Of a stretch of 30,313 nucleotides of DNA, positions 16,822-29,744 are shown piece after piece. The stretch's first letter is position 1. Each line of letters begins with the position of its first letter. The DNA comes from a virus. The stretch is from IMG/VR virus record IMGVR_UViG_3300025872_000208, positions 1 through 30,313 of that record; one strand, written 5' to 3'. The translations under genes were made by a program, and so were the position numbers. The notes beneath the pieces were generated by a model. The model searched no databases. It worked only from the letters and a program-made list of their open reading frames with translations, and was not told where the DNA came from.

Positions 16822-19539
16822 ATGCCCGTTGCCAAAGACAGACGGGACAGGATGTTCAACGCTCGCAACCTGAACAGTCTGTATTCGCGGTTCGATCAAA
16901 AGGTTGCTAGAGTTCTCGACAATAAGACTCCGATTGCCGCCGGTTTCGATCTTGAGTCATACGTCGGCATCCCTGCCGGTGTTGTCTACAAGTATTCGGT
17001 TGACCCATCGACGGCGTTCTATGTAACGGCAAACAGCACTCCGCAATCGCAGGTTGAGATTGAGTTGTCGAAGCTGGAGAACAAGTATCTCGACGTTAAT
17101 GGTGGTCAGGTATACGTCGATTCATACGTTGCCGCTTTCGATTCTTCTTTCTGTAACCTAGCGGCTATTCACAAGTCTTTTGAGCTTCACAAGCGGAACA
17201 TCGACGGAGTGGATTATGATGTCCACCTAGGATGGGATGATCCCACCGGAGCATTACTTTCCTATTGCCGAGAGTATTATGACAACGCGAGTTCGATTCC
17301 TTCCCTGCCTCCCGGTCGCATACATAAGCACAAGATCGCTGTTGCCGAGATTCTGTTGGAAGGAATAGCAGAGTTCCGCATTCTGAATACATACCAGCGT
17401 TATGACTGCTGGAGGGTACACAACTGCTTCAGGAAATCGGTTACAGTCTACTTGCAGAATCAAGATGGGTCGTCCCAACGCGAAACAGTTGGCCCAATGG
17501 GTTGCAGGTCGTTCCGCAGAAAAGGCGATGGAACTTGGCAAACAACATGGCCTGACGGGTCTCCATGCTCATATTTCTTCCCGTACTTCAGGGGTGATGT
17601 TCCTTACTTTGCCGGTGGTCCTCCGATCTACGGATACCCTCCGGCATTGTCGATGTCTTTGGAGCGATCCGCGAAAGCCAACAACATCGCAAACCCGTTC
17701 CTGTTGACCCAATGGTTCCGAGCATTGGGTGGTTGGCTTGACCCGTTTCTCGGTCTGGATATCCGACAAGCATACCCAGAATATGCAGATCCTACGGATG
17801 CCAACTCGGCGATTGGCGATCTGATATTCACTTGGGGAAGGGCTAGGGTCGTCTCGTACAACTCGACCACAAACCAAGTCATTCAAGATTACTTTAAGAT
17901 CTTTCGCAACTCGACGCAGTTCCTTCTGGATCTGGAGTCTATTGGTCTGAATGTTGCCTTTGACGGTATTGATTTAATCCTCAGCACTAAGGAGCAAAAC
18001 ACAACGATTCGGATCTATCCGATTGATTGCAATGTGTTCTTTGGATCAACCGATCCATGGTGGGAGATCACAGATTCGGACACCTATATTTCGACTGCAT
18101 ACCCTGCAACGTACTATACCCAAGACATCGTTTCTCCAACCTCTGCAACAACGTGGGCCATTGGGAATGTCCCCAGTTGGCTTGAGACCATCAGCGTCTT
18201 GCGGCGTCGGATAGCGGTGGAGGAGGGGTTTTTGAATGCTTACGATGATGTGGCGTTCATCAGCGAGGAAAAGGTTGGTCTGGTATCTCTGACTCCGCTT
18301 GGGTTGATGGTTCCAGTCACGACTGCTGTTGGAATAGATGGAATTGACGCTCTAGCCCTTAGCGATGTTGTCAATTACGAGAGAACCGCCAACATCATCG
18401 AACTAAGAACTCAAGTCAGACCTGCCAACTTTGGTTCTGGTGTGTGGTCGAACACCAATTATTGCAGCGCAATCAAGACGTATCACATTGCGTTACCCAG
18501 CAATTCTTCTGGGATGTATGGTCATGTTTTTCCGCAACTTTCGACCACATCGTCAGGGTCTAATCCTGCGGTCAACTGCTCATACGTTCCGTCTCAGGGT
18601 CCATGGGGGTTCTCAAGCTCTGTCTATGACCGAGAGTTGGAAAGGGTATTCACAACAAACCCTGCGACTCCGGCGAGGACTCAGGCATTTGGTTCTGATT
18701 TCTGGATCAACAAATGGGGCGGTGCTGGTGGTGTCGATGCTTCAGTGCGAATCTTGGGCAGACCGGAGACCACCACGCAAAGCACGGGAGCCGTTGATGA
18801 CGTATTCGGAGACCTGAACAACCCGCAGATGGCTTGTCTGGCTCCTTGGGTCACGTCCGCTGCTGCATATTACAGCACTGAGGCGGAGATCGCCGATATT
18901 CGGTGGACGTATGAAACGGTTTTTAACTGGCCGTACTCTCCGACGTATGACGCAATCAATTACGATGGAATCGGCCCATTTTATCACAAGATTCCAAAGA
19001 GCGCGTTCCTTTGGAATTTGCTGGAGTTCCATGTCCGCGCATGGACGCGAGCAGTTCCGCTGTGCCATGGCGAGGAGCAATGTCCAATTTATGGCTTTGA
19101 TGCCGCAGGAAACATTGAGACAACCACTCTTGGTGTGCTGATGCCGAAGGATCTGACGCTGACCTGCACCACCGATGAAGGCCCGTCATTCTTCATCACC
19201 GAGGAGCAGTTCGACGAATTTTTGGCGAACGGAATCTCCGCGAAGAAGCTTTATGATGGCGTCTATACGATGACCTATTACTGGGTTGTGAGTGCGGTCG
19301 AGCTTGCGGCTTACTGCAATCGGATGGGCTTCAGTTCCTACAACTTTGATTGCTTGAACCAAGTTCTCGACGGTCAGGGAGGTCTTGTGACCGCCGCCAC
19401 CAAGTGGAACTCGCAGCGGAACTATGGTCCCGGCGAGACCGTCCAGATCGCATCTTACTACGACACGGCAGCGTCGAAGGAGTTCTACCGACAGGTCCGA
19501 TACGTCAACCTACGCTTGCCCAACGAACTCTCCGCTTGA
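16822..19539 (+). CDS. large tail protein, candidate tail tip/host-recognition protein
   Basis: At 905 aa, the largest protein in the window. It starts four bases after the preceding stop. It is rich in Tyr, Trp, Asn and Ser, has scattered cysteines, and shows no collagen-like or S74 motifs. The N-terminal segment (FNARNLNSLYSRFDQKVARV) is likely structural. The rest looks like a globular beta-rich architecture with aromatic patches (YFFPYFRGDVPYFAGGPPIY), consistent with sugar or receptor contact. As the last and longest structural gene it is a good candidate for the tail tip or receptor-binding protein, but I recognise no family. Confidence 0.55.
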   Translation: MPVAKDRRDRMFNARNLNSLYSRFDQKVARVLDNKTPIAAGFDLESYVGIPAGVVYKYSVDPSTAFYVTANSTPQSQVEIELSKLENKYLDVNGGQVYVDSYVAAFDSSFCNLAAIHKSFELHKRNIDGVDYDVHLGWDDPTGALLSYCREYYDNASSIPSLPPGRIHKHKIAVAEILLEGIAEFRILNTYQRYDCWRVHNCFRKSVTVYLQNQDGSSQRETVGPMGCRSFRRKGDGTWQTTWPDGSPCSYFFPYFRGDVPYFAGGPPIYGYPPALSMSLERSAKANNIANPFLLTQWFRALGGWLDPFLGLDIRQAYPEYADPTDANSAIGDLIFTWGRARVVSYNSTTNQVIQDYFKIFRNSTQFLLDLESIGLNVAFDGIDLILSTKEQNTTIRIYPIDCNVFFGSTDPWWEITDSDTYISTAYPATYYTQDIVSPTSATTWAIGNVPSWLETISVLRRRIAVEEGFLNAYDDVAFISEEKVGLVSLTPLGLMVPVTTAVGIDGIDALALSDVVNYERTANIIELRTQVRPANFGSGVWSNTNYCSAIKTYHIALPSNSSGMYGHVFPQLSTTSSGSNPAVNCSYVPSQGPWGFSSSVYDRELERVFTTNPATPARTQAFGSDFWINKWGGAGGVDASVRILGRPETTTQSTGAVDDVFGDLNNPQMACLAPWVTSAAAYYSTEAEIADIRWTYETVFNWPYSPTYDAINYDGIGPFYHKIPKSAFLWNLLEFHVRAWTRAVPLCHGEEQCPIYGFDAAGNIETTTLGVLMPKDLTLTCTTDEGPSFFITEEQFDEFLANGISAKKLYDGVYTMTYYWVVSAVELAAYCNRMGFSSYNFDCLNQVLDGQGGLVTAATKWNSQRNYGPGETVQIASYYDTAASKEFYRQVRYVNLRLPNELSA

Positions 19540-19563
19540 CGGAAACCCAACGTTGGGTTTAAC
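19536..19563 (+). promoter_or_regulatory. early promoter with palindromic operator, site 1
   Basis: AAACCCAACGTTGGGTTT at 19543-19560 is a perfect 18-bp palindrome immediately after the last tail gene. It sits between TTGACG (19536-19541) and TTTAAC (19558-19563), 16 bp apart, which fit sigma-70-type -35 and -10 boxes. Related palindromes occur at 22770 and 29381. The layout suggests an operator for a dimeric regulator that controls the recombination operon starting at 19577. Promoter activity is inferred. Confidence 0.6.
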
Positions 19564-19576
19564 GTCTCCGCAGTCG

Positions 19577-19786
19577 ATGAAATGCCCGTCCTGTCAGCAT
19601 ATTTTTGCCGTTAGCTTGCGCGAGATCGCGCAGGAGATGGGGCGGAAATCTTCACCGGCAAAGGCCCAAACCGCTCGCGTAAATGGAAAGCGCGGGGGGA
19701 GGCCAAGGAAGACATATGAAACAAGAGTTGATCCCAAGTCAGAAGCAGTCCGCGCTCGCAATAATGGCGAGCAAATTCAACGTTGA
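19577..19786 (+). CDS. small CxxC / AT-hook-like basic protein
   Basis: A 69-aa protein from the ATG at 19577, the first ATG after the promoter/operator. The N-terminus has MKCPSCQHIF, one CxxC pair able to form half of a zinc knuckle. The middle has ARVNGKRGGRPRKTYETR, an AT-hook-like GRPRK core flanked by basic residues. It is probably a small DNA-binding protein. Its last 71 bp overlap the start of the annealing-protein gene in another frame. Function is not known, but leading the recombination operon suggests a regulatory or accessory role. Confidence 0.55.
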   Translation: MKCPSCQHIFAVSLREIAQEMGRKSSPAKAQTARVNGKRGGRPRKTYETRVDPKSEAVRARNNGEQIQR

Positions 19787-20378
19787 ACCGGTTCGTTTGC
19801 TGGAGACGCTGAAGGCTACGTTGATGCCAAAAGCGTCGAACGAAGAGCTTCTCTCCTTCGTAGTCACGGCTAACCAGTACGGGTTGAATCCGTTCACTCG
19901 CGAGATCTACGCATTCCCTGCTCGCAATGGTGGCATTCAGCCGGTGGTCAGTGTCGATGGCTGGATTAAGATGATGAACAGCCATCCGAGCTTCGATGGC
20001 ATTCAATTCACGACCGAAGACAAAGACGGAAAGCCGTGGAGCGTGACCGCAACCATTCACGTCAAAGATCGCGCCCATCCCGTGGAGGTCACCGAATACT
20101 TCTCGGAGTGTTCACGCAACACCGAGCCGTGGAAGGTCAACCCCCGTCGAATGCTCCGACACAAAGCTCTGATCCAATGCGCTCGCGTTGCTTTCGGATT
20201 CTCTGGTATCAGCGACGAGGAAGAAGCCATACCGCAAGTCGCGCTCAACGTCACGCCGTCTCGACCAATCTTCCGGTCAAAGCTGGAGCCGACTGTCGAG
20301 CCTCCGACAGTGATCCCAAGCGTTAGCGTCGAAACCAACGCCCAAACCACCACCGAGGAAGGAGCGACCAATGAATGA
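19716..20378 (+). CDS. RecT/Bet-family single-strand annealing protein
   Basis: A 220-aa recombinase. Its core (FVVTANQYGLNPFTREIYAF, IQPVVSVDGWIKMMN, the CSRNTEPWKVNPRRMLRHKA segment and IQCARVAFGFSGI) matches the Bet/RecT family. These proteins anneal complementary single strands made by a partner exonuclease. The C-terminal 45 residues are low-complexity and probably flexible. The ATG at 19716 follows AAGGAAG at good spacing; an ATG at 19683 would add 11 residues. The next gene encodes a nuclease, as in RecE/RecT and Exo/Bet pairs, and overlaps by 8 bp. Confidence 0.85.
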   Translation: MKQELIPSQKQSALAIMASKFNVEPVRLLETLKATLMPKASNEELLSFVVTANQYGLNPFTREIYAFPARNGGIQPVVSVDGWIKMMNSHPSFDGIQFTTEDKDGKPWSVTATIHVKDRAHPVEVTEYFSECSRNTEPWKVNPRRMLRHKALIQCARVAFGFSGISDEEEAIPQVALNVTPSRPIFRSKLEPTVEPPTVIPSVSVETNAQTTTEEGATNE

Positions 20379-21474
20379 CGAACGATTGGGTTTGCCTTCC
20401 GCATCCTCCGCGAGCCGGTATGCCGCTTGTCTCGGAAGTTGGCAGTTGGAGAAGCAGATTGCCGAAGGACCGGCAACCAATGACGCGACGATTGGTAACC
20501 GCATCCACGCTGCTCTTGCAAAGGATCACGTCAAAGACCTAACCGAGGATGAGATGGAGATCGTTTTGCGATGCTCCGCTCAAGAGGAGGATTTGGTCAA
20601 AGTCACGTTTGCTGGCTCCGAGGAAGAACCAAACGTCTTCCGCGAGAAGCGTCTCTGGTCAATCGACGAGAACGGCAAGAAGCTTTGGAGCGGAAAGCCG
20701 GATGTCATTTACACCAACGGTCCAGTTGGTCTGATCATCGACTACAAGACGGGTCGCGGCGCAGTCGAGAACGCTGCCGAGAACCTTCAGTTGCGGTGCT
20801 TGGTCGCTCTGCTCGACGAGAACTTTGGGTTCACGTTTGAGAAGATCACGGTTGCAATCATCCAACCGCTTGCAGGTGTCCCAAGTGTTGCAGTCTACGA
20901 ATCTGGGGACATTCGGAATGCAATCGCTGAATCAGCGGCTTTGATGGATGACATCCAGAAGCTTGGTCAACCGCGCACTCCTTCCGAGTCCGCTTGCCGG
21001 TACTGCAAAGGAAAGCCCTATTGCGCCGAAGCGCGGGAGTTGGCCGTCGCTGGTCCTCTTGCGAATGCGCCAGAAGGCATAACGCCAGACGCTATAGCCG
21101 CCACACTGACCAACCAGACGCTTGCAGCGTTCTTGGATCGTGCAGCGCAAGCGGAGGCCGTAATCGAAGCTTGCCGCAATGAGGCACGACGGAGGCTTGC
21201 AGAAGGTGATACGGTCGAAGGGTGGACGCTCAAAGAAGGTGCAGTGCGTGAGACAATCAAAGACACCGAGACCGTTTACCTTCGATTTATCGAAAGTGGC
21301 GGGACTTACGAGGACATCATGCCAGCAATCACGATCAACAAGACGAAGCTCAAAGATGCGTTGAAAGTGGCAACCGAAACCAAAGGAAAGGAACTGGACG
21401 CAAAGCTGACCGCTCTGCTCGACGGATGTATCGAATCGAAAGCCTCACAACCCACACTGACCCGAATCAAATGA
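20371..21474 (+). CDS. Cas4/AddB-like PD-(D/E)XK exonuclease (DUF2800-like)
   Basis: A 367-aa nuclease. It has a RecB-type core: His46 (GNRIHAAL), Asp111 (SGKPDVIY), Asp124-Tyr-Lys126 (IIDYKTGRG) and the later helix NLQLRCLVALL. Cys20 (RYAACLGSW) near the N-terminus plus Cys209, Cys212 and Cys218 (ACRYCKGKPYC) after the core match the four-cysteine arrangement that holds a 4Fe-4S cluster in AddB and Cas4. The opening LPSASSASRYAACLGSW resembles DUF2800 phage nucleases. It probably resects DNA ends for the annealing protein encoded just upstream. The remaining C-terminal 140 residues are helical and less conserved. Confidence 0.82.
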   Translation: MNDERLGLPSASSASRYAACLGSWQLEKQIAEGPATNDATIGNRIHAALAKDHVKDLTEDEMEIVLRCSAQEEDLVKVTFAGSEEEPNVFREKRLWSIDENGKKLWSGKPDVIYTNGPVGLIIDYKTGRGAVENAAENLQLRCLVALLDENFGFTFEKITVAIIQPLAGVPSVAVYESGDIRNAIAESAALMDDIQKLGQPRTPSESACRYCKGKPYCAEARELAVAGPLANAPEGITPDAIAATLTNQTLAAFLDRAAQAEAVIEACRNEARRRLAEGDTVEGWTLKEGAVRETIKDTETVYLRFIESGGTYEDIMPAITINKTKLKDALKVATETKGKELDAKLTALLDGCIESKASQPTLTRIK

Positions 21475-21905
21475 ACCAGACTCACCCAATGGAACTAGTC
21501 CGAGAGTTCATGCGGACATTCCAGCAGTACGTTCCAGCTACTCCAGTCATGCCAGATCCGGTGACGCAGAATTTGCGTTATAGGCTGATCGACGAGGAGT
21601 CCCAAGAATTGGCCGAAGCGACGAACAAAACCGAGTATCTCGACGCTGTTGGAGACCTGCTGTATGTCGTCTACGGGGCTGCACTTGCTGCTGGCTTCAG
21701 TCCGCATCAAGTCGATGCAGCGTTCTCGGAAATCCACAGGTCCAACATGAGCAAGTGTTGGAGCGACGACGAGATCCACTCTATCCCCGCTGACTGCCGC
21801 TCATCTCGGGTTGGAGACAATCGACACATTGTCCGTCGCACTGACGGTAAGATCGTCAAGAGTCCGTCCTACTCACCGGCACGACTGGAGGGGTACACGC
21901 GATGA
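21471..21905 (+). CDS. MazG-like nucleotide pyrophosphohydrolase
   Basis: A 144-aa protein from the ATG at 21471 (ATGA overlap with the preceding stop); an in-frame ATG at 21489 is an alternative. It contains the all-alpha NTP pyrophosphohydrolase signature: LIDEESQELAEA (Glu42, Glu43, Glu46) and, after a short helix, YLDAVGDLLYVVYGAALAAG (Asp58, Asp62), the EExxE...D metal-binding set. Phage MazG-like enzymes hydrolyse dNTPs or modified nucleotides, or lower (p)ppGpp-related signals. The C-terminal 50 residues (SDDEIHSIPADCRSSRVGDN) are an extension. Its place in the recombination operon suggests nucleotide-pool control. Confidence 0.75.
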   Translation: MNQTHPMELVREFMRTFQQYVPATPVMPDPVTQNLRYRLIDEESQELAEATNKTEYLDAVGDLLYVVYGAALAAGFSPHQVDAAFSEIHRSNMSKCWSDDEIHSIPADCRSSRVGDNRHIVRRTDGKIVKSPSYSPARLEGYTR

Positions 21906-22222
21906 GACATCTATGGGCGAGGGGTTTCGGCAAGCTGTACCGCGATGCCGAAGTGATTACCACGGATGATGGCAGGAGGTTTCTCCTAGCGGTCATTGAG
22001 TTTGATCAGCGCACGTTGGGCAACGGCAAGCCATATGCACAGCGGGTCCAATTCCGGTCATTCGACAATGAAGACATTGAGATCGCTGACCAGTTACTCG
22101 CGGGTACATACGTCATGTTCGACGGCGATTGCGATGCGGTGGCTGACAAGTCGCAAACCGGATGGTGGTACGCCAATCCACGGGTCACCGGACGCATCAA
22201 CGAAATCCACCATGCATCTTGA
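21902..22222 (+). CDS. small OB-fold-like protein, possible ssDNA-binding accessory
   Basis: A 106-aa protein, ATGA-coupled to the gene before. The pattern of strands (FLLAVIEFDQRTLGNGKPYA, QRVQFRSF, TYVMFDGDCDAV, WWYANPRVTGRINEI) fits an OB-fold of the SSB or PriB kind. Lying between nuclease and resolvase genes, it could protect or load single strands. A separate SSB-like protein is encoded at 29454, so this one may have a special role. The assignment is tentative. Confidence 0.45.
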   Translation: MRHLWARGFGKLYRDAEVITTDDGRRFLLAVIEFDQRTLGNGKPYAQRVQFRSFDNEDIEIADQLLAGTYVMFDGDCDAVADKSQTGWWYANPRVTGRINEIHHAS

Positions 22223-22634
22223 TTTCCACGTCACCGGAATCCCGAAGGCTCAACCGCGAGTCAAAGCGTTCCGTCGCGGGACTCACGCTGGAGTCTACAC
22301 TCCAGATTCCGCAGACGGTTGGAAACAATCGGTGCGTCTAGAAGCCATCGCAAACGCTCCACGTTGCCTTATGACGGGTCCGATTAGGTTGCAGCTAGAC
22401 TTCTTCCTACCGCGACCCAAAGCGCATCTAGACCGACACGGCATTCCGAAGCCGAAATCTCCGGTTTGGCATCCCAAGAAGCCAGACTTGGACAACCTCA
22501 TCAAAGCGGTGACCGATGCGATCACCGACACTCAACGGGTCTGGCTCGACGACTCGCAAGTCTACCAGATTACAGCGACGAAGACTTACGCTCTCCAGCA
22601 CTCTGGATGCAGCGTGAGAATCAACGCTGACTGA
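22212..22634 (+). CDS. rusA: RusA-like Holliday junction resolvase
   Basis: A 140-aa protein, the usual length of RusA. It begins HLDFHVTGIPKAQPRVKAF and carries the catalytic block WHPKKPDLDNLIKAVTDAI (Asp92, Asp94) followed by WLDDSQVYQI (Asp113 or Asp114), matching the three essential acids of RusA. RusA cleaves Holliday junctions as a dimer, resolving recombination or replication intermediates before packaging. The ATG at 22212 overlaps the previous gene by 11 bp. It is the last gene of the recombination operon; a long structured region follows. Confidence 0.88.
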   Translation: MHLDFHVTGIPKAQPRVKAFRRGTHAGVYTPDSADGWKQSVRLEAIANAPRCLMTGPIRLQLDFFLPRPKAHLDRHGIPKPKSPVWHPKKPDLDNLIKAVTDAITDTQRVWLDDSQVYQITATKTYALQHSGCSVRINAD

Positions 22635-22716
22635 CCTTCGGAAAATGCGGCATGGTGCGCGGAGAGAGTCCGCGACGGGTTTGGTTCACCTCAAGAAACA
22701 CCGCATTTTCCTAAGG
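22635..22716 (+). ncRNA. long nested hairpin downstream of rusA
   Basis: CCTTCGGAAAATGCGG (22635-22650) pairs with CCGCATTTTCCTAAGG (22701-22716) over 16 bp with one mismatch. Inside the 50-nt loop, CGCGGA/TCCGCG (22658-22663 with 22669-22674) forms a second perfect stem, and GGTG/CACC (22654-22657 with 22687-22690) can pair around it. No U-tract follows directly. It could be a structured RNA, a terminator-like element or a cruciform linked to replication. I do not match it to a known RNA family. Confidence 0.5.
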
Positions 22717-22761
22717 ATTTCGATGGTTTTGAATCATCCAAAAGATTTTTGCATTTTTCTG

Positions 22762-22789
22762 TTGCGGAGAACCGAGCGTTGGGTTTAAC
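22762..22789 (+). promoter_or_regulatory. early promoter with operator, site 2
   Basis: AACCGAGCGTTGGGTTT at 22770-22786 is the site 1 palindrome with two changes in its left half; GCGTTGGGTTTAAC (22776-22789) keeps the right half. TTGCGG (22762-22767) and TTTAAC (22784-22789) flank it with the same 16-bp spacing as at site 1. The T-rich stretch just upstream could act as an UP-like element. It should drive the gene at 22836 and the small-gene operon that follows. Confidence 0.55.
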
Positions 22790-22835
22790 TCTCTCCATCG
22801 ACGGCGATCAAGCCGCGAGAAACTGAACGAATAAA

Positions 22836-23105
22836 ATGAGCGCAACCACCACAACTATCGACACCGAAAAAGCACTTCGTAACATTGTTGAGAAATGCAA
22901 GAAAGACAAGAATTTTCAAATCACATTGGTCATGTGCGCCCCATTGGTCTATATTCGCATGAAAGGGAGTCTGCATTTTGTTGGGTCTGTTCCTTCATTT
23001 ATGTTGGACGCTTCTTGTAATTCTGATCCTAGTTTGACCGATCAGATCACATTTCACTCAAAAGCAGTTCTTACTGTTCATGGAGATGTAATTTATCTCC
23101 GTTAA
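22836..23105 (+). CDS. AT-rich hypothetical early protein
   Basis: An 89-aa protein, MSATTTTIDTEKALRNIVEK at the start, with a helix-strand pattern (FQITLVMCAPLVYIRM, LTVHGDVIYLR). The gene is visibly more AT-rich than its neighbours and stands alone between two non-coding regions, which suggests recent acquisition. It is the first gene after operator site 2, so probably expressed early. The leader GAACGAATAAAATG has no Shine-Dalgarno. No family is recognised; a host-takeover role is possible but unsupported. Confidence 0.55.
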   Translation: MSATTTTIDTEKALRNIVEKCKKDKNFQITLVMCAPLVYIRMKGSLHFVGSVPSFMLDASCNSDPSLTDQITFHSKAVLTVHGDVIYLR

Positions 23106-23168
23106 TTAAACAAGATGAAATGTTCATGTATATTTATATACAATAATTAATCTCAAATAAATTTTCAA
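23106..23168 (+). other. AT-rich island with palindromes
   Basis: This stretch is strongly AT-rich. It contains TGTATATTTATATACA (23127-23142; 7-bp arms, 2-bp spacer) as well as TTAATTAA. It looks like a duplex-opening or promoter region in a genome that is otherwise near 50% GC. No gene is visible in it. Confidence 0.45.
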
Positions 23169-23193
23169 GAGGGGCGCGACTCTCCAACGCGCA
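23169..23193 (+). repeat. GC hairpin repeat, copy 1
   Basis: GAGGGGCGCGACTCTCC followed by AACGCGCA. GCGCG can pair with CGCGC around a 9-nt loop. A second copy of the same design lies at 23251. The spacing of about 82 bp and conservation of GAGGGGCGCGACTC suggest a functional pair (RNA leader element, or protein-binding site). Confidence 0.5.
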
Positions 23194-23250
23194 TCCTTTG
23201 GGTCCGGTTGAACCTCATCAACCCAGTCGTCCGGTACGGAATACTCGGAG

Positions 23251-23276
23251 GAGGGGCGCGACTCCTAAAACGCGCA
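23251..23276 (+). repeat. GC hairpin repeat, copy 2
   Basis: GAGGGGCGCGACTCC followed by TAAAACGCGCA, with GCGCG and CGCGC arms around a 10-nt loop. It ends 14 bases before the ATG at 23291. The loop sequence differs from copy 1 while both arms and the GAGGG lead are kept, which argues for selection on the stem. Confidence 0.5.
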
Positions 23277-23290
23277 AACCATCAAATACC

Positions 23291-23485
23291 ATGAAATACC
23301 ATTGCAGAAACAAGGACGGCAAAGTCCTAAGTATCCACCGCAGCATCGAAGAAGCTCTGAGGTCCAAAGATGTCTGGAATCATACCATCGAACTGATTGG
23401 TATTACCGACGAGACCGGAAGGGTTCTTGAGGCCGATGAAATCTTCCAAGCCAAAGCCTCCGCTTGGCTGAAAGGTCTCCGATGA
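23291..23485 (+). CDS. small hypothetical protein upstream of the endolysin
   Basis: A 64-aa protein from the ATG at 23291 (leader CATCAAATACC, like that of the SSB-like gene at 29454). It is charged, with KYHCRNKDGKVLSIHRSIEE forming strands and a helix, and a C-terminal helix (EIFQAKASAWLKGLR). It overlaps the endolysin start (ATGA at 23482). It is not recognised; it could be a small regulator. Confidence 0.55.
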   Translation: MKYHCRNKDGKVLSIHRSIEEALRSKDVWNHTIELIGITDETGRVLEADEIFQAKASAWLKGLR

Positions 23486-23808
23486 ATCTGGGACCACTCA
23501 TCGCTGCTCTGATAACAGTCGAGTCCAACGGCAACGACACAGCAATCGGAGATGGTGGTCGAGCCATTGGCGCACTCCAGATCCACAAAGCGGTTGTGGT
23601 GGACGCCAACCGCATCGCTGGCACTAGCTACACCCACCAGCAAATGACCAACCGAATCGCGGCTCGTCGAGTTTGCGAGATCTATCTGAGCCGATACGCT
23701 GCGGGAAAGACCAACGAAGAAGCAGCGAGAATTTGGAACGGTGGCCCGACTGGTCACCAGAAGTCAGCGACCGTCAGCTATTGGAACAAAGTCAAAAAGC
23801 ATCTGTGA
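23482..23808 (+). CDS. small lytic transglycosylase-type endolysin
   Basis: A 108-aa protein. It carries the SLT/lysozyme-like signature: catalytic Glu14 followed by Ser15 (ITVESNGND), then GRAIGALQIHKAVV, the equivalent of the GLMQI block, and a closing ARIWNGGPTGHQ segment where transglycosylases have the NYN/GG motif. It probably cleaves glycan strands of the cell wall. No signal peptide or binding domain is present, so export would rely on the holin candidates at 9918-10270. At 108 aa it is short for the family. It lies about 13 kb from those membrane genes, in an early-type operon. Confidence 0.75.
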   Translation: MNLGPLIAALITVESNGNDTAIGDGGRAIGALQIHKAVVVDANRIAGTSYTHQQMTNRIAARRVCEIYLSRYAAGKTNEEAARIWNGGPTGHQKSATVSYWNKVKKHL

Positions 23809-23945
23809 AACCCAAGACCGTATTCCTAACCGAAAAGACCCACCAGAAGCTCAAAGAGCTATGCAATCAACAGGGAATCAAGCTGAACCACATTGTCGAC
23901 TTGATAGTCCGCGAATGGCTGGAGAAGAAGGAGGCCAAGCCGTGA
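23805..23945 (+). CDS. ribbon-helix-helix-like small protein
   Basis: A 46-aa protein from GTG 23805, overlapping the endolysin stop. A short basic strand (KPKTVFLTEKTHQKL) is followed by two helices (KELCNQQGIKLNHIVDLIVR), matching the length and layout of CopG/Arc-type ribbon-helix-helix DNA-binding proteins. These act as dimers on palindromic operators, so it is one candidate for a factor binding the repeated operator. This is inference from pattern only. Confidence 0.55.
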   Translation: MKPKTVFLTEKTHQKLKELCNQQGIKLNHIVDLIVREWLEKKEAKP

Positions 23946-24187
23946 GCGATACACCAAACCCAAACGTGTTTTTCCGAGGTGATGACATGGGAATCGGAAA
24001 CTTTCCAATCAAAGGAGGCAAAATTAGCAATCAACCAATCAACGACGGAGGATATTGGTTTGAGAAATTCAAAGAAGCCAATGAGCGCATCCAGCGGCTG
24101 GAGGAGGCGGGGGATGCGATGGTTGAAACCACAACGACACCTGCTGCTGATGCATGGCACAAAGCCAGAGGGGAGGCCAAGCCATGA
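23942..24187 (+). CDS. small early protein, paralogue A
   Basis: An 81-aa frame from GTG 23942 with a good Shine-Dalgarno sequence (AAGGAGG, 8 bases before); an ATG at 23988 is the alternative. The C-terminal part contains ANERIQRLEEAGDAM, also found in the next gene as ENERIHRLERAGDML. The first half is Gly/Asn-rich and probably flexible. Function is unknown. Confidence 0.5.
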   Translation: MSDTPNPNVFFRGDDMGIGNFPIKGGKISNQPINDGGYWFEKFKEANERIQRLEEAGDAMVETTTTPAADAWHKARGEAKP

Positions 24188-24471
24188 GCCATCATGTTCG
24201 TGACGCCACGAAAATGATCAGCAAAACCCCGCGCACAGACCGGCAGCCGTACATCACGGTTGGTTTCACCGAGTTCGTGAAGGCTGGCTTCGCCCGTCAG
24301 CTAGAGCGGCAACTGGCCGGAGCCAACAAGCGGATCGTCGAGCTGGAGAAGGAGAATGAACGCATCCACAGATTGGAACGTGCTGGGGATATGCTGTGCG
24401 CTGCTGCCGCCTTCCTAGGCTGGCATGGTGAGATTGAGCAATGGAACAGGGTGAAGGTGAGGAAGCCGTGA
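24184..24471 (+). CDS. small coiled-coil protein, paralogue B
   Basis: A 95-aa protein from the ATG at 24184 (GGGGAGG 6 bases upstream, ATGA overlap). Residues about 40-70 form a coiled coil (QLERQLAGANKRIVELEKEN) running into ERIHRLERAGDML, followed by AAAAFLGWHGEIEQWNRVK. It shares this module and its ribosome binding site context with the gene before, evidence of local duplication. Function unknown; similar coiled-coil proteins are common accessory genes in phages. Confidence 0.55.
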   Translation: MSHHVRDATKMISKTPRTDRQPYITVGFTEFVKAGFARQLERQLAGANKRIVELEKENERIHRLERAGDMLCAAAAFLGWHGEIEQWNRVKVRKP

Positions 24472-24686
24472 ACAACCCCATCGACCCTGCCGCATTCGTC
24501 TTCAAGCATAAGCGAACCGGACAAGTCGTCGTGGCACCCAGCGAGCGGTGGCATGAGTACTACGACAACAAGGAGAACTGGGAACACACCGCCAGCATCA
24601 ACGCCTGTCTTGCAATCCAATACATCCTGTCGGTCAAACCGAGGGAGCGGAACAGGTACCTGAGATCACTCACGGAGAAGAAATGA
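24468..24686 (+). CDS. small hypothetical early protein
   Basis: A 72-aa frame from GTG 24468, in the GTGA overlap typical of this operon and with AGGTGAGGA just upstream; an in-frame ATG at 24441 would add 9 residues. The protein has FKHKRTGQVVVAPSERWHEY and ends with SVKPRERNRYLRSLTEKK, basic and helical. Not recognised. Confidence 0.5.
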   Translation: MNNPIDPAAFVFKHKRTGQVVVAPSERWHEYYDNKENWEHTASINACLAIQYILSVKPRERNRYLRSLTEKK

Positions 24687-24907
24687 AACTGCGACCGATC
24701 AAATGGGTACTGTCACCGACCGACGACCATATGCTTTCGATGGAATGCACCGACATCGAAATCGTCGATGAGGGCGGCGGTGAATACGTCGAGGTGAGTC
24801 AATCGGCTGATGGCCACGGCAAGATCAGCATCAACCCCGAGGAATGGCCGATGATGCGTAAGGCCATCGACGATGCGATCAAGCAATGCAGGGATCTGAA
24901 GAAATGA
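24683..24907 (+). CDS. small acidic hypothetical protein
   Basis: A 74-aa acidic protein (TDIEIVDEGGGEYVEVSQSA, with a C-terminal helix EEWPMMRKAIDDAIKQC). ATGA overlaps at both ends. GGAGAAGAA precedes the ATG. Acidic small early proteins can be inhibitors of host enzymes, but nothing here is specific. Confidence 0.5.
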   Translation: MKLRPIKWVLSPTDDHMLSMECTDIEIVDEGGGEYVEVSQSADGHGKISINPEEWPMMRKAIDDAIKQCRDLKK

Positions 24908-25104
24908 AACTCCTACACGAGATGCCGGTCGATCATCCGGCGCGTAACACCGCTCTGGTCAACCTAGATGTCCGCATTCGCTGCCGACATACCAAGTCGA
25001 TGCGCGATCCGAGGACTTGGAAGATCAAGTCAGACACTTACAACCGTTTGAACGATAGCTGGCGGAACAACTTCGATTTCATTGTATATGAACAACAAAG
25101 TTAA
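24904..25104 (+). CDS. small basic hypothetical protein
   Basis: A 66-aa protein from the ATG at 24904, overlapping the preceding stop. It contains ALVNLDVRIRCRHTKSMRDP and ends NNFDFIVYEQQS. It is not recognised. Its end overlaps the next gene by 17 bp in another frame. Confidence 0.5.
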   Translation: MKLLHEMPVDHPARNTALVNLDVRIRCRHTKSMRDPRTWKIKSDTYNRLNDSWRNNFDFIVYEQQS

Positions 25105-25273
25105 TACATCATTTGAATTGGATTACAAAACACTTACAGCACTACAGAAAGAAGCAGAGAAACTCGGTTTCCGGTCTTGGGGAGCATACATCCGCCACGT
25201 CTTGGACTTTCACATCGTAACATTTCACCCAGAACTATTGAATGAGCATACTACAAACACTCGGACTAACTAA
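25088..25273 (+). CDS. small helix-rich protein, possible RHH type
   Basis: A 61-aa protein from the ATG at 25088, inside the end of the previous gene. An N-terminal strand (NNKVNTSFELDYKTL) and two helices (TALQKEAEKLGF, SWGAYIRHVLDFHI) recall ribbon-helix-helix proteins. The gene is more AT-rich than its neighbours. It overlaps the next gene by 32 bp. Confidence 0.45.
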   Translation: MNNKVNTSFELDYKTLTALQKEAEKLGFRSWGAYIRHVLDFHIVTFHPELLNEHTTNTRTN

Positions 25274-25514
25274 GGACGCAATCGCCAGATTGTTAGGTGT
25301 AACACAAGCACCAGTTCAACAACCGAAATCAACAACCGCACCAAAGAGCAGAAAGACATACAAGGGTCGAAAGCAATGGAAGATATCCAAAAGGGTGGTT
25401 GATGCCGTCAGAAATGAACCATCCAACAAGACGCTTGTAGAATTGTCCCATAAGTACAATGTCTCCGTTTACTGGGTCTGGTGTGTTCGTAAGAACAAAA
25501 TCCGAGTGAATTGA
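25242..25514 (+). CDS. helix-turn-helix protein
   Basis: A 90-aa basic protein. Residues 8-21 (GLTKDAIARLLGVT) and again about 57-88 (KTLVELSHKYNVSVYWVWCV) have helix-turn-helix spacing, separated by a Lys/Pro/Thr-rich linker (PKSTTAPKSRKTYKGRKQWK). It is likely DNA-binding and, within the early operon, a candidate regulator. The second element resembles sequence-specific HTH modules used with recombinases and transcription switches. The assignment is moderate. Confidence 0.5.
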   Translation: MSILQTLGLTKDAIARLLGVTQAPVQQPKSTTAPKSRKTYKGRKQWKISKRVVDAVRNEPSNKTLVELSHKYNVSVYWVWCVRKNKIRVN

Positions 25515-25570
25515 CCTAAATCCAGCGAGTGTGTCTTGATTGATGCTTCGTCTTATGCTTACTACCAACT

Positions 25571-26320
25571 GTGAACATCACACAACACCGCCGACGTGTC
25601 ATGGCGGTTGGTTGCAGCCATGGGAACCGAGCCAATCAAGATGCACTCGCTGCTGTGCTGTTATTCCGCGAGAGATTCAAACCGGACGAAGTGATCCATC
25701 TCGGAGACGCCTACGATCTTGCCGCATTGCGAACCGGATCACTCCGAGACCCTCAAGACTCGGACCAAGCAGATGACTATCTCGACGACATCGAACAGGG
25801 AGCCAAATTTCTAGACGATCTTAGGCCGACAGTCTTCACCATGGGAAACCATGATGAACGAGCAAAGAAGTATCTGAACCATCACAACGCTGTTGTCAGA
25901 GGATTCGCTGAAGCTGTATGGGAACGAATGTTGCAGCCTATTGAGAAACATTGTCATACATTTATCAAATACAATGATTGCCATGACAGATCGTTTTATC
26001 AGTTGGGCGGATTTAGATGGGGACACGGCGTCCTATTTGGTGAGAACTTCTTGCGTGATTCAGCCGAGACTTTTGGCAACTGCGTTGTGGCTCATGCTCA
26101 CAGAGCAGGTCAAGCGTCTGGAAGATCGAATGGAAATCCATTGGGCTTTTGCGTCGGTACTTTGGCAGACGTTCCTGCAATGGATTATGCCTCCAAGCGA
26201 CGATCAACCCTAGCTTGGTCCCATGGAATGGTCTTTGGTGAGTACACCGAGACATCCGCCAACCTTTACCTTCACCAATGGCCTCAGAACGAACAGAATT
26301 GGCGCCTGCCGAGCTTCTAA
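25571..26320 (+). CDS. metallophosphoesterase
   Basis: A 249-aa calcineurin-like phosphoesterase. Motifs are in order: VGCSHGN (residues 13-19), HLGDAYDLA (GD at 45-46), TMGNHDE (GNHD at 92-95), RWGHGVLF (His152) and VVAHAHRAG (His175, His177). The first motif normally has Asp-x-His, but here the Asp position is Cys15. GTG 25571 gives the full first strand; an ATG at 25601 would start just before it. Phage members of this family can be DNA phosphatases or nucleotide 2',3'-phosphodiesterases; which applies is unclear. Confidence 0.78.
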   Translation: MNITQHRRRVMAVGCSHGNRANQDALAAVLLFRERFKPDEVIHLGDAYDLAALRTGSLRDPQDSDQADDYLDDIEQGAKFLDDLRPTVFTMGNHDERAKKYLNHHNAVVRGFAEAVWERMLQPIEKHCHTFIKYNDCHDRSFYQLGGFRWGHGVLFGENFLRDSAETFGNCVVAHAHRAGQASGRSNGNPLGFCVGTLADVPAMDYASKRRSTLAWSHGMVFGEYTETSANLYLHQWPQNEQNWRLPSF

Positions 26321-26562
26321 AGCGGCTTAGGCTCGCGATAGCCAACCAACCAGAAGAAGTCCCAAAAGGCTGGCATACAGCCAACCAATGGGCCGAGATC
26401 TGGAACATCACGCCAAATGCTGCTGGAATCGTTCTCTCACGATCAGTTCGCATCGGAGAGATGGAGTCCAAGAAGTTCCGCATACTTTGCGGTAACCGTG
26501 GAGCTTATCCCACACCGCATTACCGTCCAACCAATGAAATACAGATCAAAAGCCAACCCTAA
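26278..26562 (+). CDS. winged-helix-like small protein
   Basis: A 94-aa protein overlapping the metallophosphoesterase gene by 43 bp. It has an N-terminal helix (LAPAELLKRLRLAIANQ), then WHTANQWAEIWNITPNAAGI, a helix-turn-helix pattern, and a wing-like strand pair (IGEMESKKFRILCGNRG). It is probably DNA-binding. Its role is unknown; it is a further candidate for early regulation. Confidence 0.5.
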   Translation: MASERTELAPAELLKRLRLAIANQPEEVPKGWHTANQWAEIWNITPNAAGIVLSRSVRIGEMESKKFRILCGNRGAYPTPHYRPTNEIQIKSQP

Positions 26563-26716
26563 GGTTGCAGTCGAGTTTGTCTCCGAAGCCCAACTCCGCA
26601 TCGGAGAGACCAAGAGACTTGCCGTCATCTACCAGCGCGACGGATACACCTACGTCAGACCGAAAGCAGAGTTCTTCGACAAGTTTGTGCTGGACGAGAA
26701 ACCGATCCCGAGTTAG
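26534..26716 (+). CDS. small beta-rich hypothetical protein
   Basis: A 60-aa protein from the ATG at 26534, overlapping the previous gene by 29 bp. MKYRSKANPKVAVEFVSEAQ and LAVIYQRDGYTYVRPKAEFF suggest a small beta-barrel. It is the last gene before a 150-bp non-coding gap. Not recognised. Confidence 0.5.
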   Translation: MKYRSKANPKVAVEFVSEAQLRIGETKRLAVIYQRDGYTYVRPKAEFFDKFVLDEKPIPS

Positions 26717-26788
26717 ACCTATCCCTGTCGCTGCGAGCCGTGAGAAGCCAGCAGCGGTGCAAAAGATAATCCATGTTAAACCATTTCG

Positions 26789-26854
26789 ATCCCCCTCGCA
26801 CCGTGCATGTCCCGTCGATTATCCGGGAGTTCTCACCACGGTGCGTAGGGGGAT
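26789..26854 (+). terminator. long hairpin between the small-gene operon and the HNH/replication genes
   Basis: ATCCCCCTCGCACCGTG (26789-26805) pairs with CACGGTGCGTAGGGGGAT (26837-26854) along 17 bp with one bulged A. A second stem TCCCG/CGGGA (26810-26814 with 26824-26828) forms inside the loop. TTT follows directly. It may end the preceding transcription unit, or be a regulatory leader of the HNH gene that begins 13 bases later. The U-run is short, so the terminator call is provisional. Confidence 0.55.
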
Positions 26855-26866
26855 TTTGGCTTCAAC

Positions 26867-27355
26867 ATGACATACTCAGAAAAGCTCCAAGATCCTAGGT
26901 GGCAGAAAAAGCGGCTCGAAATCATGTCTAGAGACGCATTTGCATGCCGCAAATGCCAATCAAAGACAAACAGCCTAACGGTTCATCACTTCTATTATGT
27001 AGCAAGAAGGAATCCGTGGGAATATCCACGCAATTCAATGGTGACAATTTGCAGAGACTGTCATCGGGAGGCTCACAAAGACGATTCAAGCCTGAGATTG
27101 GATTTTTTCAATTCGTGGGAAACCAGTGCAGGAATTGAAATCGCGAGGCAAATTTCGATGGTTGAGCAGGACATTAACCATGATGAAGGATGCTTATTTT
27201 TCATTGAAAGAGCCGCATACGAAATTGGATGGCCACCTTTCGAAATTCTGCATCTTTTGAAAGACGCCGCTGAACATGGAATAATGACAGATGAATGGCT
27301 TATGAACTTAAGGAAGCAAATTCCTTCTAGTGATATTGAGGAAAACGAACAATGA
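26867..27355 (+). CDS. HNH endonuclease-like protein
   Basis: A 162-aa protein. Residues about 10-75 hold an HNH fold: DPRWQKKRLEIMSRDAFACR, then CRKCQ, LTVHHFYYVARR (the paired His) and ICRDCHREAHK, with two CxxC pairs for structural zinc. The C-terminal 85 residues are helical and acidic, not part of the nuclease. It stands just before the replication initiator and overlaps it (ATGA at 27352). HNH proteins in phages may be homing endonucleases, host-DNA nucleases or packaging helpers; which is not clear here. Confidence 0.72.
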   Translation: MTYSEKLQDPRWQKKRLEIMSRDAFACRKCQSKTNSLTVHHFYYVARRNPWEYPRNSMVTICRDCHREAHKDDSSLRLDFFNSWETSAGIEIARQISMVEQDINHDEGCLFFIERAAYEIGWPPFEILHLLKDAAEHGIMTDEWLMNLRKQIPSSDIEENEQ

Positions 27356-28086
27356 GAATTAGATCTATTAAACCAGAGTTCTGGGAATCTGAAAGTCTCG
27401 GGAGAGTATCAAGAGAAGCTAGGCTCCTTTTCATCGGACTCTTCTCATGTTGCGATGATGTCGGGAGGGCTCGCGCATCCTCGCGACTCCTCGCGAGCCG
27501 TCTTTTCCCTTACGATGATGACGCTTTCAAGAAGCTTCCAGCGTGGATTGCTGAACTTGAAAGGGAGGGTTGCGTTCGGCTCTATCAGGTTGCCGGTGAA
27601 TCATATCTGGATATCCCAAAATGGCTGAATCACCAGAAAATCGACAAACCTTCGGCGTCCAAGCTCCCGGCATTCGACGATACTCGCGAGGATTCGCGAG
27701 GATTCGAGAAAAATAGCCTTGGAACAGGGAACAGGGAAGAGGAACAGGGAAAGGAACAGGAGACATTCTTCGTTTCGGAGGTTCCCGTGAAACCTCTTTG
27801 GGGTGTTAAGTTTGGATTGATGCTTCCAGAGAATCTGCAGACTGATGAATGCCTTTCGGCTCTTGAGACTTGGCTTGCTTATAAAGCTGAACGAAAACAA
27901 GGATATAAGCGAATCGGATTATCCGAAGCTCTTAAATCTTGGTCGAAGGAATTTAACAAAGACACATTCCCGTCTGCCGTCATTAACTCCATTGCTAATA
28001 ATTATCAGGGTCTATTTGCTCCGAGAGCTGCACTTCAAATTCAAACTCCTCAGAAAAAGGAACTCGACTGGAGGGATAGCCTGTGA
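27352..28086 (+). CDS. replication initiator (lambda O / DnaD-like)
   Basis: A 244-aa protein. The N-terminus (MRIRSIKPEFWESESLGRVS, REARLLFIGLFSCCDDVGRA) is the winged-helix start typical of phage replication initiation and helicase-loading proteins. A low-complexity charged linker (residues about 108-140) separates it from a helical C-terminal domain that could contact the helicase (ALETWLAYKAERKQGYKRIG, LKSWSKEFNKDTF). The linker is encoded by iteron-like repeats (27685-27760), the arrangement seen for ori inside lambda gene O. The helicase gene follows with a GTGA overlap. Confidence 0.72.
   Translation: MRIRSIKPEFWESESLGRVSREARLLFIGLFSCCDDVGRARASSRLLASRLFPYDDDAFKKLPAWIAELEREGCVRLYQVAGESYLDIPKWLNHQKIDKPSASKLPAFDDTREDSRGFEKNSLGTGNREEEQGKEQETFFVSEVPVKPLWGVKFGLMLPENLQTDECLSALETWLAYKAERKQGYKRIGLSEALKSWSKEFNKDTFPSAVINSIANNYQGLFAPRAALQIQTPQKKELDWRDSL
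27685..27760 (+). repeat. iteron-like repeats inside the initiator gene (candidate ori)
   Basis: CGCGAGGATT occurs twice back to back at 27685 and 27695. GGAACAGG occurs four times at 27721, 27728, 27741 and 27753. A short A-rich stretch lies between the two arrays. All are on the same strand within 76 bp of the linker-coding part of the initiator gene. In lambda-type phages the initiator binds iterons inside its own gene. Confidence 0.55.
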
Positions 28087-29378
28087 GCAGCCCATACTTC
28101 TCGGAAGAAGACGAGTTCGGTTTAATCGGAGCTTGTTTGACTGGAACTCTGGACACTTGCGCTGATGCGCTCGCTGAAGTCCGAAGCGACTGGATCGAAC
28201 ATCAATCGCTCAAAGACACCTACGAGGTAATTCGTTCGCTGACTCAACAGAACCGCGCACCAAGCCTTCCTGAGCTTGGGAAGGAATGGAAGAAGCTGAA
28301 CGGCAACCAGCCCATCCCTTTCGAGGACTGGAACAAAGCGATGGAAGTCTGTCCGTCACCGGCAAACCTTCCATACTACGTCAAAGGCATAGCAGAAGCC
28401 GCTCACCGTCGCCAGCTAAGGCTCGCAGGAGACCGCCTTATACGCGAGTCCGCTGTCCTGACACTTCCGACAGATCAAATCGTCTCTAATGCCGAAGCAG
28501 GACTCAGCATTGAGGTCTCTAGGGAGACTCTCTCAACGTCAAAACAGGTCGCGGGGTCGTTCATCGACGCGATGCAGGAAAGATTCAGCCGAAAAGGCAC
28601 GCTCTCGGGAGTGACCACTGGCTTCCATTGGCTCGACGACAAGACCGATGGTTTGCAGCACGGTGAGCTTGCCATAATTGCGGCTCGTCCATCTATAGGT
28701 AAAACGGCAATCGCCATCGCCATTGCCGAAGCAGCAGCGGTCAGAGCTAAGATCCCAACGCTGTTCATTTCGCTTGAGATGTCGAAGGAGGCGATCTTCA
28801 GACGATCCGTCGCATCTATCGGGAGCGTTCCAATGCAGAACCTTAAGAGCGGAAACCTCAACGAGGGGGATATGCGCTCAATGAGCCAAGCATCTGCAAA
28901 GCTCGCAAGCAGTCCGCTCTGGTTCTTGGATGGCTCAAGTTCTCAAAGCATCGCCAGCATCACCGCCAATATCCGCAGAGCAGTGCGAAAACACAAAGTG
29001 CGGCTTGTGATTATAGACTATCTCCAGAAGGTAAAGGCAGCCGAGAAGTCCGAAAAACGCACCTATGAAGTCGCAGAGGTCAGCGGTAAGCTCAAAGACA
29101 TTGCAGTCCAGACCGGAGTGGCTCTGCTATCATTAGCTCAGTTGAACCGAGAGAACGAGAAGGACAAAGGCAGACAACCTCGTCTGACTGATCTAGCGGA
29201 CTCCGGTCAGATCGAACGTGACGCTGACCTTGTGATGCTACTAGACCGAGATCGAAAGCAGTCGAAAGGTGAAGCCTCAATCGTCATCGCAAAGCAACGC
29301 GACGGTGAGTGTGGCCTAGTCAAGCTTTGGTATGATGGGCAATTCTGCAGGTTCTCAGAGCCTCCCATAGATACCTAA
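28083..29378 (+). CDS. DnaB-like replicative helicase
   Basis: A 431-aa helicase that would unwind DNA at the replication fork as a hexamer. The N-terminal domain (1-110) is shorter than in host DnaB. The RecA-like core has GVTTGFHWLDDKTDGLQHGE, Walker A at 201-208 (ARPSIGKT), TLFISLEMSKEAI, Walker B at 309-314 (VIIDYL), LLSLAQLNRE, and the closing DSGQIERDADLVMLLDR. All key motifs are intact. The GTG at 28083 overlaps the initiator stop. No primase domain is present, so priming would use the host enzyme. Confidence 0.9.
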   Translation: MSSPYFSEEDEFGLIGACLTGTLDTCADALAEVRSDWIEHQSLKDTYEVIRSLTQQNRAPSLPELGKEWKKLNGNQPIPFEDWNKAMEVCPSPANLPYYVKGIAEAAHRRQLRLAGDRLIRESAVLTLPTDQIVSNAEAGLSIEVSRETLSTSKQVAGSFIDAMQERFSRKGTLSGVTTGFHWLDDKTDGLQHGELAIIAARPSIGKTAIAIAIAEAAAVRAKIPTLFISLEMSKEAIFRRSVASIGSVPMQNLKSGNLNEGDMRSMSQASAKLASSPLWFLDGSSSQSIASITANIRRAVRKHKVRLVIIDYLQKVKAAEKSEKRTYEVAEVSGKLKDIAVQTGVALLSLAQLNRENEKDKGRQPRLTDLADSGQIERDADLVMLLDRDRKQSKGEASIVIAKQRDGECGLVKLWYDGQFCRFSEPPIDT

Positions 29379-29380
29379 AT

Positions 29381-29420
29381 CCCAACGCTGGGTTGACACC
29401 ATAAACAAAGTCTGTAAACT
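29381..29420 (+). promoter_or_regulatory. promoter with operator, site 3, before the SSB-like gene
   Basis: CCCAACGCTGGGTT (29381-29394) is the central part of the operator found at sites 1 and 2, with one centre change. Here it overlaps the start of TTGACA (29393-29398), a perfect -35 box. TAAACT (29415-29420) lies 16 bp further as the -10. Operator placement therefore differs from sites 1 and 2, which suggests the regulator may have a different effect here. Confidence 0.6.
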
Positions 29421-29453
29421 GCCTCTCGACGGTACAAATCCCCCACAAATACC

Positions 29454-29744
29454 ATGGTAATCGGAAAGATTGACGTTACGAAGGTCGATAAGACCCATCT
29501 ATTCAAAGGCAAGTCTGGAACCTACCTCGACATTGCTTTAATCCCCAACAAGACCGGACGCGACCAATACGGTAATGATGGAATGGTCGTTCAGTCCGTC
29601 TCAAAAGCAGCAAGACAAGAAGGCAAGAAAGGTCCGATCCTTGGCAATTATGTCGACATGGACCAACGCGATAAGCCGCAGACCAAAGCAAAGCCGGTCT
29701 CCGCAAATGACCCCATCGGACCTGAAGACGACATCCCGTTCTGA
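29454..29744 (+). CDS. single-stranded DNA-binding protein-like
   Basis: A 96-aa protein. An OB-like run of strands (VIGKIDVTKVDKTHLFKGKS, TYLDIALIPNK, GMVVQSVSKAAR) is followed by a flexible, Lys/Pro-rich segment and an acidic tip EDDIPF, the peptide SSB proteins use to recruit partner enzymes. This fits a phage SSB covering replication and recombination intermediates. It is shorter than bacterial SSB (about 170 aa), but small phage versions are known. The leader is ACAAATACCATG. It follows the helicase and operator site 3. Confidence 0.7.
   Translation: MVIGKIDVTKVDKTHLFKGKSGTYLDIALIPNKTGRDQYGNDGMVVQSVSKAARQEGKKGPILGNYVDMDQRDKPQTKAKPVSANDPIGPEDDIPF

Follow-up and report, generated by a model that had tools for sequence, protein, structure and literature searches.

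A conserved palindromic operator at three phage promoters and a small GGRP-tail protein as its probable regulator

Small phage repressors of the Arc, cI and Cro type act by occluding promoters. MerR-type regulators place their operator within the promoter spacer, which in their case is 19-20 bp long. AT-hook proteins, reportedly the subject of Aravind and Landsman (1998), carry a G-R-P core flanked by basic residues. In Tn3 resolvase, helix E is joined to the DNA-binding domain by a short AT-hook, which docks into the minor groove of the DNA (PMC9943657). Here we describe the virus record IMGVR_UViG_3300025872_000208, whose 30,313 bases make up the window analysed in this study (the record carries no completeness estimate and may be a fragment), in which a palindrome recurs at three promoters and a gene for a 69-amino-acid (aa) protein ending in NG..GGRP, referred to below as the GGRP protein, directly follows the first of them. 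As in systems of the Arc, cI and Cro type, the palindromic operator lies in or beside the promoter, the candidate regulator gene stands directly downstream and several operators occur per genome; unlike those repressors, the GGRP protein has no helix-turn-helix (HTH) or ribbon-helix-helix (RHH) match at the cut-offs of Pfam, PHROGs and NCBIfam. The placement of the operator within the spacer is MerR-like, but the spacing is an ordinary 16-18 bp, and the GGRP protein matches no MerR domain in Pfam, NCBIfam or PHROGs, which leaves it outside the MerR family. We consider it reasonably probable that the palindrome is the operator of the GGRP protein, which would control the three promoters as a dimeric autorepressor.

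A first-pass annotation of this DNA had pointed to a perfect palindrome with two relatives at the heads of transcription units, and the shuffle test, the matrix scan and the comparison with relatives described below all indicate that these sites are real. The sequence AAACCCAACGTTGGGTTT is a perfect 18-bp palindrome at 19543-19560, and site 2 (22769-22786) and site 3 (29378-29395) each differ from it by 3 mismatches; the two mismatches originally counted at site 2 hold over the inner 16 positions, but there are three over the full 18-mer. In dinucleotide-preserving shuffles 0.04 matches were expected per shuffle, and three matches were reached in 0 of 100. A weight-matrix scan of the window scored the three sites at 22.8-28.1 bits and the next best position at 9.3 bits, so that nothing comparable occurs elsewhere in the window. 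All three sites head gene runs on the + strand. The elements of the three promoters, and the proposed regulator gene, are as follows.

19536-19541, + strand: -35-like box TTGACG of promoter 1 (sequence reading)
19543-19560, no strand assigned: operator 1, AAACCCAACGTTGGGTTT, core 19544-19559, within the promoter spacer (motif in 47/48 distinct regions upstream of recT)
19558-19565, + strand: -10 region of promoter 1, either TTTAAC (19558-19563, spacing 16) or TAACGT (spacing 18) (sequence reading)
19577-19786, + strand: 69-aa GGRP-tail open reading frame (ORF), proposed regulator and first gene of unit 1 (ORF translation; homologues in relatives)
22762-22767, + strand: -35-like box TTGCGG of promoter 2 (sequence reading; relatives vary between TTGACG, TTGCAG and TTGCGG)
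22770-22785, no strand assigned: operator 2, core AACCGAGCGTTGGGTT (motif in 48/50 distinct regions downstream of rusA)
22784-22789, + strand: -10-like TTTAAC of promoter 2, 16 bp from the -35 box (sequence reading)
29379-29394, no strand assigned: operator 3, with core ATCCCAACGCTGGGTT reaching into the -35 box from the upstream side (motif ahead of the ssb-like gene in 60/68 distinct regions)
29393-29398, + strand: -35 box TTGACA of promoter 3 (sequence reading; TTGAC retained in most relatives)
29415-29420, + strand: -10-like TAAACT of promoter 3, spacing 16 (sequence reading)

Palindromes 1 and 2 sit between a -35-like and a -10-like box, in what had been called an identical frame; the 16-bp spacing and TTTAAC are indeed common to both, but the -35 boxes TTGACG and TTGCGG are similar rather than identical. 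Palindrome 3, unlike the other two, covers the first two bases of TTGACA (its core ends at 29394 and the box starts at 29393), in agreement with the overlap first noted there, and this geometry is conserved wherever site 3 is kept; as first suggested, promoter 3 may be affected differently from the other two.

Relatives of the window were gathered from viral contigs through RusA (42 loci), the SSB-like protein (the best 80 of 129) and RecT (44), some of which share contigs, and a site was called present if it agreed with AACCCA.CG.TGGGTT at 11 or more of its 14 fixed letters. On this basis the sites recur at the same promoters in the proportions listed above, and TTGAC precedes palindrome 1 in 45 of the 48 distinct regions (the exceptions being L162, L165 and L167). 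Locus L167 lacks the motif at all three places, and L106 counts as a miss for site 2 because its site lies nearer to rusA than the stretch scanned. Seven ssb regions (L045, L048, L058, L060, L081, L094 and L098) carry the inverted repeat AACTCTAAACAAGAGTT, or a variant of it, at the place of site 3, as if another regulator had taken over. All three regions are covered in 66 loci, of which 57 have all sites, 6 lack site 3 and L167 has none, while L106 and L166 miss site 2 owing to its closer position to rusA; the 66 loci reduce to 28 distinct triplets and are therefore not independent. When 167 partly redundant loci totalling 2.09 Mb were scanned with the matrix, 152 distinct contexts reached at least 14 bits, 144 of which fall into the three site classes, the remaining 8 comprising one ssb site at a contig end, two instances of an extra promoter in L162 and L164, and five weak contexts. 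At 20 bits or more the same loci gave 312 hits and the reversed sequences 0. The conservation of the sites in relatives supports the three-promoter regulon with a palindromic, dimer-type operator that had been suggested from the window. The extra operator-promoter stands at L162:13306-13321, where it precedes what we take to be a DUF932-like gene, and at L164:14927-14942, where it presumably follows the end of such a gene and precedes small genes.

The operator is not confined to this group. A DNA-only scan of the viral collection for TTGACA, 0-3 bases and AACC.A.CG.T.GGTT found 91 stretches, against 8 (four distinct sequences) for a control in which the central CG was changed to GC. In 87 newly fetched loci 88 sites were read, 27 of them within the window's family and 61, spread over 60 loci, outside it, the remaining stretches being family loci fetched earlier. 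The 61 outside sites represent 53 distinct sequences (4 in the control), or 46 groups once loci alike in DNA are joined. Across the 53, the distance between palindrome and TTGACA slides over 0-3 bases, and a TATAAT match of at least 4/6 is found at a spacing of 16-18 in 40, where downstream positions lead one to expect 4.5. The two arms vary together in part: positions 4/11 are complementary in 33 of the 53 (21.7 by shuffling, p 0.00025), and positions 6/9 show no linkage (14 complementary, 16.3 expected). Apart from the operator, these viral contigs share little; L325 has distant relatives of RecT, RusA and SSB, and a few others have single ones. What is conserved is a palindromic operator that overlaps a promoter, as in phage repressor-operator systems.

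The operator is accompanied by one particular protein. When stop-to-stop ORFs of at least 36 residues, lying up to 2 kb downstream in the 60 loci, were clustered without use of the tail motif, one family, of small proteins, was present in 36 loci and the next in 5, and 31 of the 36 members carry NG..GGRP. An NG..GGRP ORF occurs in the loci of 38 of the 61 outside sites, no more than 600 bases downstream in 20, and in 0 of 8 control loci, against a background of 1 NG..GGRP per 1.54 Mb (80 bacterial and 8 control viral loci). For the 44 eligible distinct sites, namely those with at least 700 bases downstream, a same-strand GGRP gene follows within 1500 bases in 28, compared with 6.9 for random positions in these loci and 0 on the opposite strand; after dereplication the gene is found downstream in 27 of the 39 eligible groups among the 46. 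It is the first ORF, 7-14 bases past the site, in several outside loci (L380, L323, L325, L336), and in L340 it is divergent and immediately upstream of the site. A phage-encoded gene is linked to the operator in this way, the link being a genomic one, and since the operator often sits just ahead of the GGRP gene, the GGRP protein is likely to be the controller. Conversely, among 44 loci picked by the protein, the operator lies upstream of the GGRP gene in 6, including L265, a close relative, and L278, whose contig also appeared in the DNA scan; the same criterion applied over the whole of these loci gave 8 forward matches, 3 on the other strand (where a palindrome may count twice) and 0 in reversed or complemented sequence. 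On this sequence evidence the operator predicts the GGRP protein well, and the converse holds for only part of the protein family.

The 69-aa protein of the window, MKCPSCQHIFAVSLREIAQEMGRKSSPAKAQTARVNGKRGGRPRKTYETRVDPKSEAVRARNNGEQIQR, was absent from the earlier list of candidate regulators. Its ATG (19577) starts 17 bases after the last base of palindrome 1, a gap too short for an ordinary leader, so that its mRNA is probably leaderless or nearly so. Homologue, library and tblastn searches with the window protein used the first 47 of its 69 residues, which form the conserved part, and the results stand for that part. A well conserved homologue of these residues is present in 95 of the 167 loci, including the far relatives L162-L165, where the shortness of the loci leaves no basis for judging the other candidates. 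Through an alignment of the family (A2), at least 68 further viral loci were confirmed among 600 candidates, several of them with the palindrome and some of these in near-canonical promoters. Searches of Pfam, NCBIfam and PHROGs with the protein and its relatives returned below-cut-off zinc-ribbon or HTH fragments and no convincing family. Searches by tblastn found GGRP peptides neither in phages (one peptide) nor in plasmids (two), a result that is not evidence of absence, as the low-complexity filter probably drops queries rich in Lys and Ala. Hits to the tail alone came from Thalassomonas, Vibrio and an uncultured phage; in three such regions the matches fall within longer annotated proteins.

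Structural comparison gives a lead as to how such a protein might contact DNA. A single family member found no match in the PDB, and a family profile (A3) returned weak top hits including the stretch AAARNKGRIGGRPPK of a DNA-invertase, which we take to be Gin (4m6f, E 0.038; 3uj3, E 0.11; both non-significant). In the AlphaFold2 (AF2) model of the protein (mean pLDDT 69.7, pTM 0.33), residues 14-21 and 27-38 are helical and the tail is extended. Taken together, these observations suggest a helical hairpin and a minor-groove arm. Over AAARNKGRIGGRPPK the protein may resemble, at a non-significant E, the helix E and AT-hook arm of serine invertases and resolvases (Gin, Hin, Tn3); unlike these recombinases, it has neither a catalytic domain nor a second DNA-binding domain, and the match may be convergent or due to chance. 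With AT-hooks it shares a G-R-P core flanked by basic residues, but it differs from them in that its core is G-G-R-P and the operator has fixed C/G positions rather than an A/T tract. Within the family, a branch with an extra GG (LG+KGG..S..K..AAR.NGKKGGRP; L263-L316, for example L277, L289, L297 and L307) has no such operator upstream and may have one of its own. At L268:6560-6620, TTGACA-AACCTATCAAATAGGATT stands right before the GGRP gene, with a wider, imperfect, related palindrome in the spacer that is perhaps an operator variant.

We propose the following mechanism. A phage-encoded regulator would govern the recombination unit, the small-gene and replication unit and the ssb-like unit through the palindrome. 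The GGRP protein would act as a dimer: each of its subunits would recognise one AACC(C/T)A half-site, placing its helical hairpin against the DNA and its G-G-R-P arm into the minor groove. Bound at site 1 or 2, the dimer would occupy the space between the -35 and -10 boxes and thereby block RNA polymerase, and at site 3 it would cover the edge of the -35 box. As the GGRP gene follows site 1, the protein would, from the time at which it had accumulated sufficiently, switch off its own unit together with the two others.

Several other explanations have to be weighed against this proposal. Another regulator of the phage might use the palindrome, the GGRP gene being a regulated passenger; the first-pass annotation had named four such candidates, among them an RHH-like protein at 23805 and HTH proteins at 25242 and 29753. 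The RHH protein, of 46 aa, matches the Arc-like repressor family phrog_3180 (E 1.5e-6; its Pfam ParG match, 0.0019, is below the cut-off) and lies in unit 2, and in the 77 loci with RusA and SSB relatives (window included, contigs repeated) the RHH protein and the two HTH proteins, HTH-90 and HTH-147, are present in 72, 76 and 66 respectively. However, the N-terminal strand of the RHH protein is variable (KTVFLTE, KSVIISE, KIFVVSD) while the operator core is constant, and a tblastn search over 64 further operator loci, many of them short, recovered the GGRP protein in 33 but the RHH protein, HTH-90 and HTH-147 in 0 each and the fourth candidate, a winged-helix protein, in 3 (L260, L261, L265). 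None of the four named candidates is supported by this distribution, and we regard a different phage regulator as unlikely. An operator belonging to a host-encoded regulator and adopted by many phages would account for its presence in viral contigs that have little else in common, and for the 23 of 61 sites whose loci contain no NG..GGRP. It would leave the same-strand downstream GGRP gene unaccounted for, and the promoter-operator pattern was found neither in the 6 genomes with a named locus nor in 398 genomes from the phylum to which G002 (a Neisseria locus) belongs or 297 from that of G001 (a metagenome-assembled genome, MAG, of Pyrinomonadaceae), the host phylum itself not being identified. 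These genome scans also bear on a host LexA-like regulon, which was considered as one form of this reading. Bacterial RecT relatives (the best 80 of 116) reach 63% at best, in the Pyrinomonadaceae MAG contig, and otherwise 35-56%, and none of these 80 loci has the motif at 16 bits or more. The recurrence in other viral contigs and the absence of the pattern from the bacterial genomes scanned favour the phage-borne control that was originally suggested, and we consider a host regulator very unlikely.

The GGRP protein might also bind the same sites but activate, acting from within the spacer or, at site 3, from its upstream edge; the three units would then form a positive loop. The -10 boxes of the window are weak, and site 3 adjoins its -35 box on the upstream side, a position that activators use as well; yet the spacing of 16-18 falls short of the roughly 19-20 bp needed by known spacer-binding activators of the MerR type, and 11 of the 53 outside sites have a 6/6 TATAAT, which should need no activator. 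Activation appears quite unlikely to us. That the palindrome is instead an RNA hairpin, a terminator or a chance or repeat sequence is hardly tenable: its arms do covary in part and 16-bp palindromes can form hairpins, but sites 1 and 2 lie between the -35 and -10 boxes and hence upstream of the transcript, no T run follows the palindromes in the window, and chance is made improbable by the shuffles, the reversed-sequence scan and the CG to GC control.

Some observations weigh against the proposed mechanism. The poor -10 boxes of the window would also fit an activator, and the AF2 confidence is moderate. The sites whose loci lack NG..GGRP are explained in some cases by loci that end early, but not in others (L367, L372). 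Conversely, 38 of the 44 protein-picked loci have no upstream operator; many of them belong to the branch with the extra GG, which may read another site, but L264, L268, L271 and L285 lack the extra GG and the operator alike. Phages of the L045/L048 type have a divergent site 1 besides the different repeat at site 3. L167 has relatives of RecT, RusA and SSB and lacks both the operator and the GGRP protein, but as it also lacks three other candidates, it singles out none. The outside loci vary in length and some are mutually related; the DNA pattern was picked after sites had been seen in GGRP loci, which makes the link partly dependent on that first look; and NG..GGRP served as a search term, so that its invariance in A3 is by construction.

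The genes under the three promoters, and a conserved folded element ahead of promoter 2, are listed here.

19716-20378, + strand: Bet/RecT-like annealing protein, second gene of unit 1, its start overlapping the GGRP ORF (phrog_252, E 6.5e-64)
20371-21474, + strand: DUF2800 / PD-(D/E)XK exonuclease-like protein, unit 1 (Pfam PF10926, PF12705; phrog_69 exonuclease)
22212-22634, + strand: RusA Holliday-junction resolvase, last gene of unit 1 (Pfam PF05866, E 7.5e-23)
22637-22715, + strand: conserved element that separates rusA from promoter 2 and folds as RNA (or single-strand DNA) (covariation across relatives)
29454-29744, + strand: SSB of the first-pass annotation, first gene of unit 3 (no Pfam match at 0.001; relatives collected)

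RecT was searched from 19683, and the start at 19716 suits its conserved N-terminus better. A MazG-like gene also belongs to the run of unit 1, between the exonuclease-like gene and rusA, and site 2 heads a run of small genes that ends with dnaB. The name SSB for the product of 29454-29744 is unconfirmed, there being no Pfam match at 0.001. As for cultured phages, megablast found no relative of 19300-30313, none was found for the 905-aa protein of the window, and DnaB has such relatives only below 60%. An inverted repeat, CCTAATCGCAA ... TTGCGTTAGG, lies at 30240-30272, after the last HTH gene and close to the contig end.

The element at 22637-22715 is about 80 bases long and is closed by a stem of 10 bp; it contains a hairpin whose loop includes GAGA, and its AUGGU and GAAACA are conserved. 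It is absent from L106 and L167 among 50 regions; the other 48 amount to 44 distinct sequences, in which 21 of the 23 predicted pairs are kept in 43-44, many by two-sided changes. Element and operator are separable, as L106 lacks the former and keeps the latter. Rfam returned no match for the element, and a covariance model (R1, 92 bits) run on 91 loci, most of them outside the group, found it in 3 (the window, L162 and L164). It is possibly a new phage RNA. Just past promoter 2, a stem-loop CGGC-GAUCAA-GCCG at 22802-22815 is changed on both sides of its stem in far relatives (GAGC/GCTC in L162, AAGC/GCTT in L164), and perhaps serves to stabilise the 5' end of the leader.

Phage autorepressors whose operator lies in their own promoter are an already known kind of system, but the GGRP protein family and the operator are new, neither having been found in the open-licence literature. 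Our results provide a concrete candidate protein-operator pair for tiny phage proteins that Pfam, NCBIfam and PHROGs leave unnamed. It is possible, though we hold this more tentatively than the assignment of the operator itself, that the GGRP proteins represent a new class of minimal regulators, each a helical hairpin with a GGRP arm for the minor groove, which bind DNA in a sequence-specific manner, and that one large branch of them shares the spacer operator AACC.A.CG.T.GGTT. If true, a protein of 45-70 residues without a recognised DNA-binding domain would read a 16-bp operator; it would be exceptionally small for a repressor and of use in the design of synthetic promoters. On this reading, as otherwise dissimilar phages share the operator, those co-infecting one host could repress each other's early genes through it. 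Within the group itself, the proposed regulon explains how uncultured phages could coordinate their recombination, replication and ssb-like genes.

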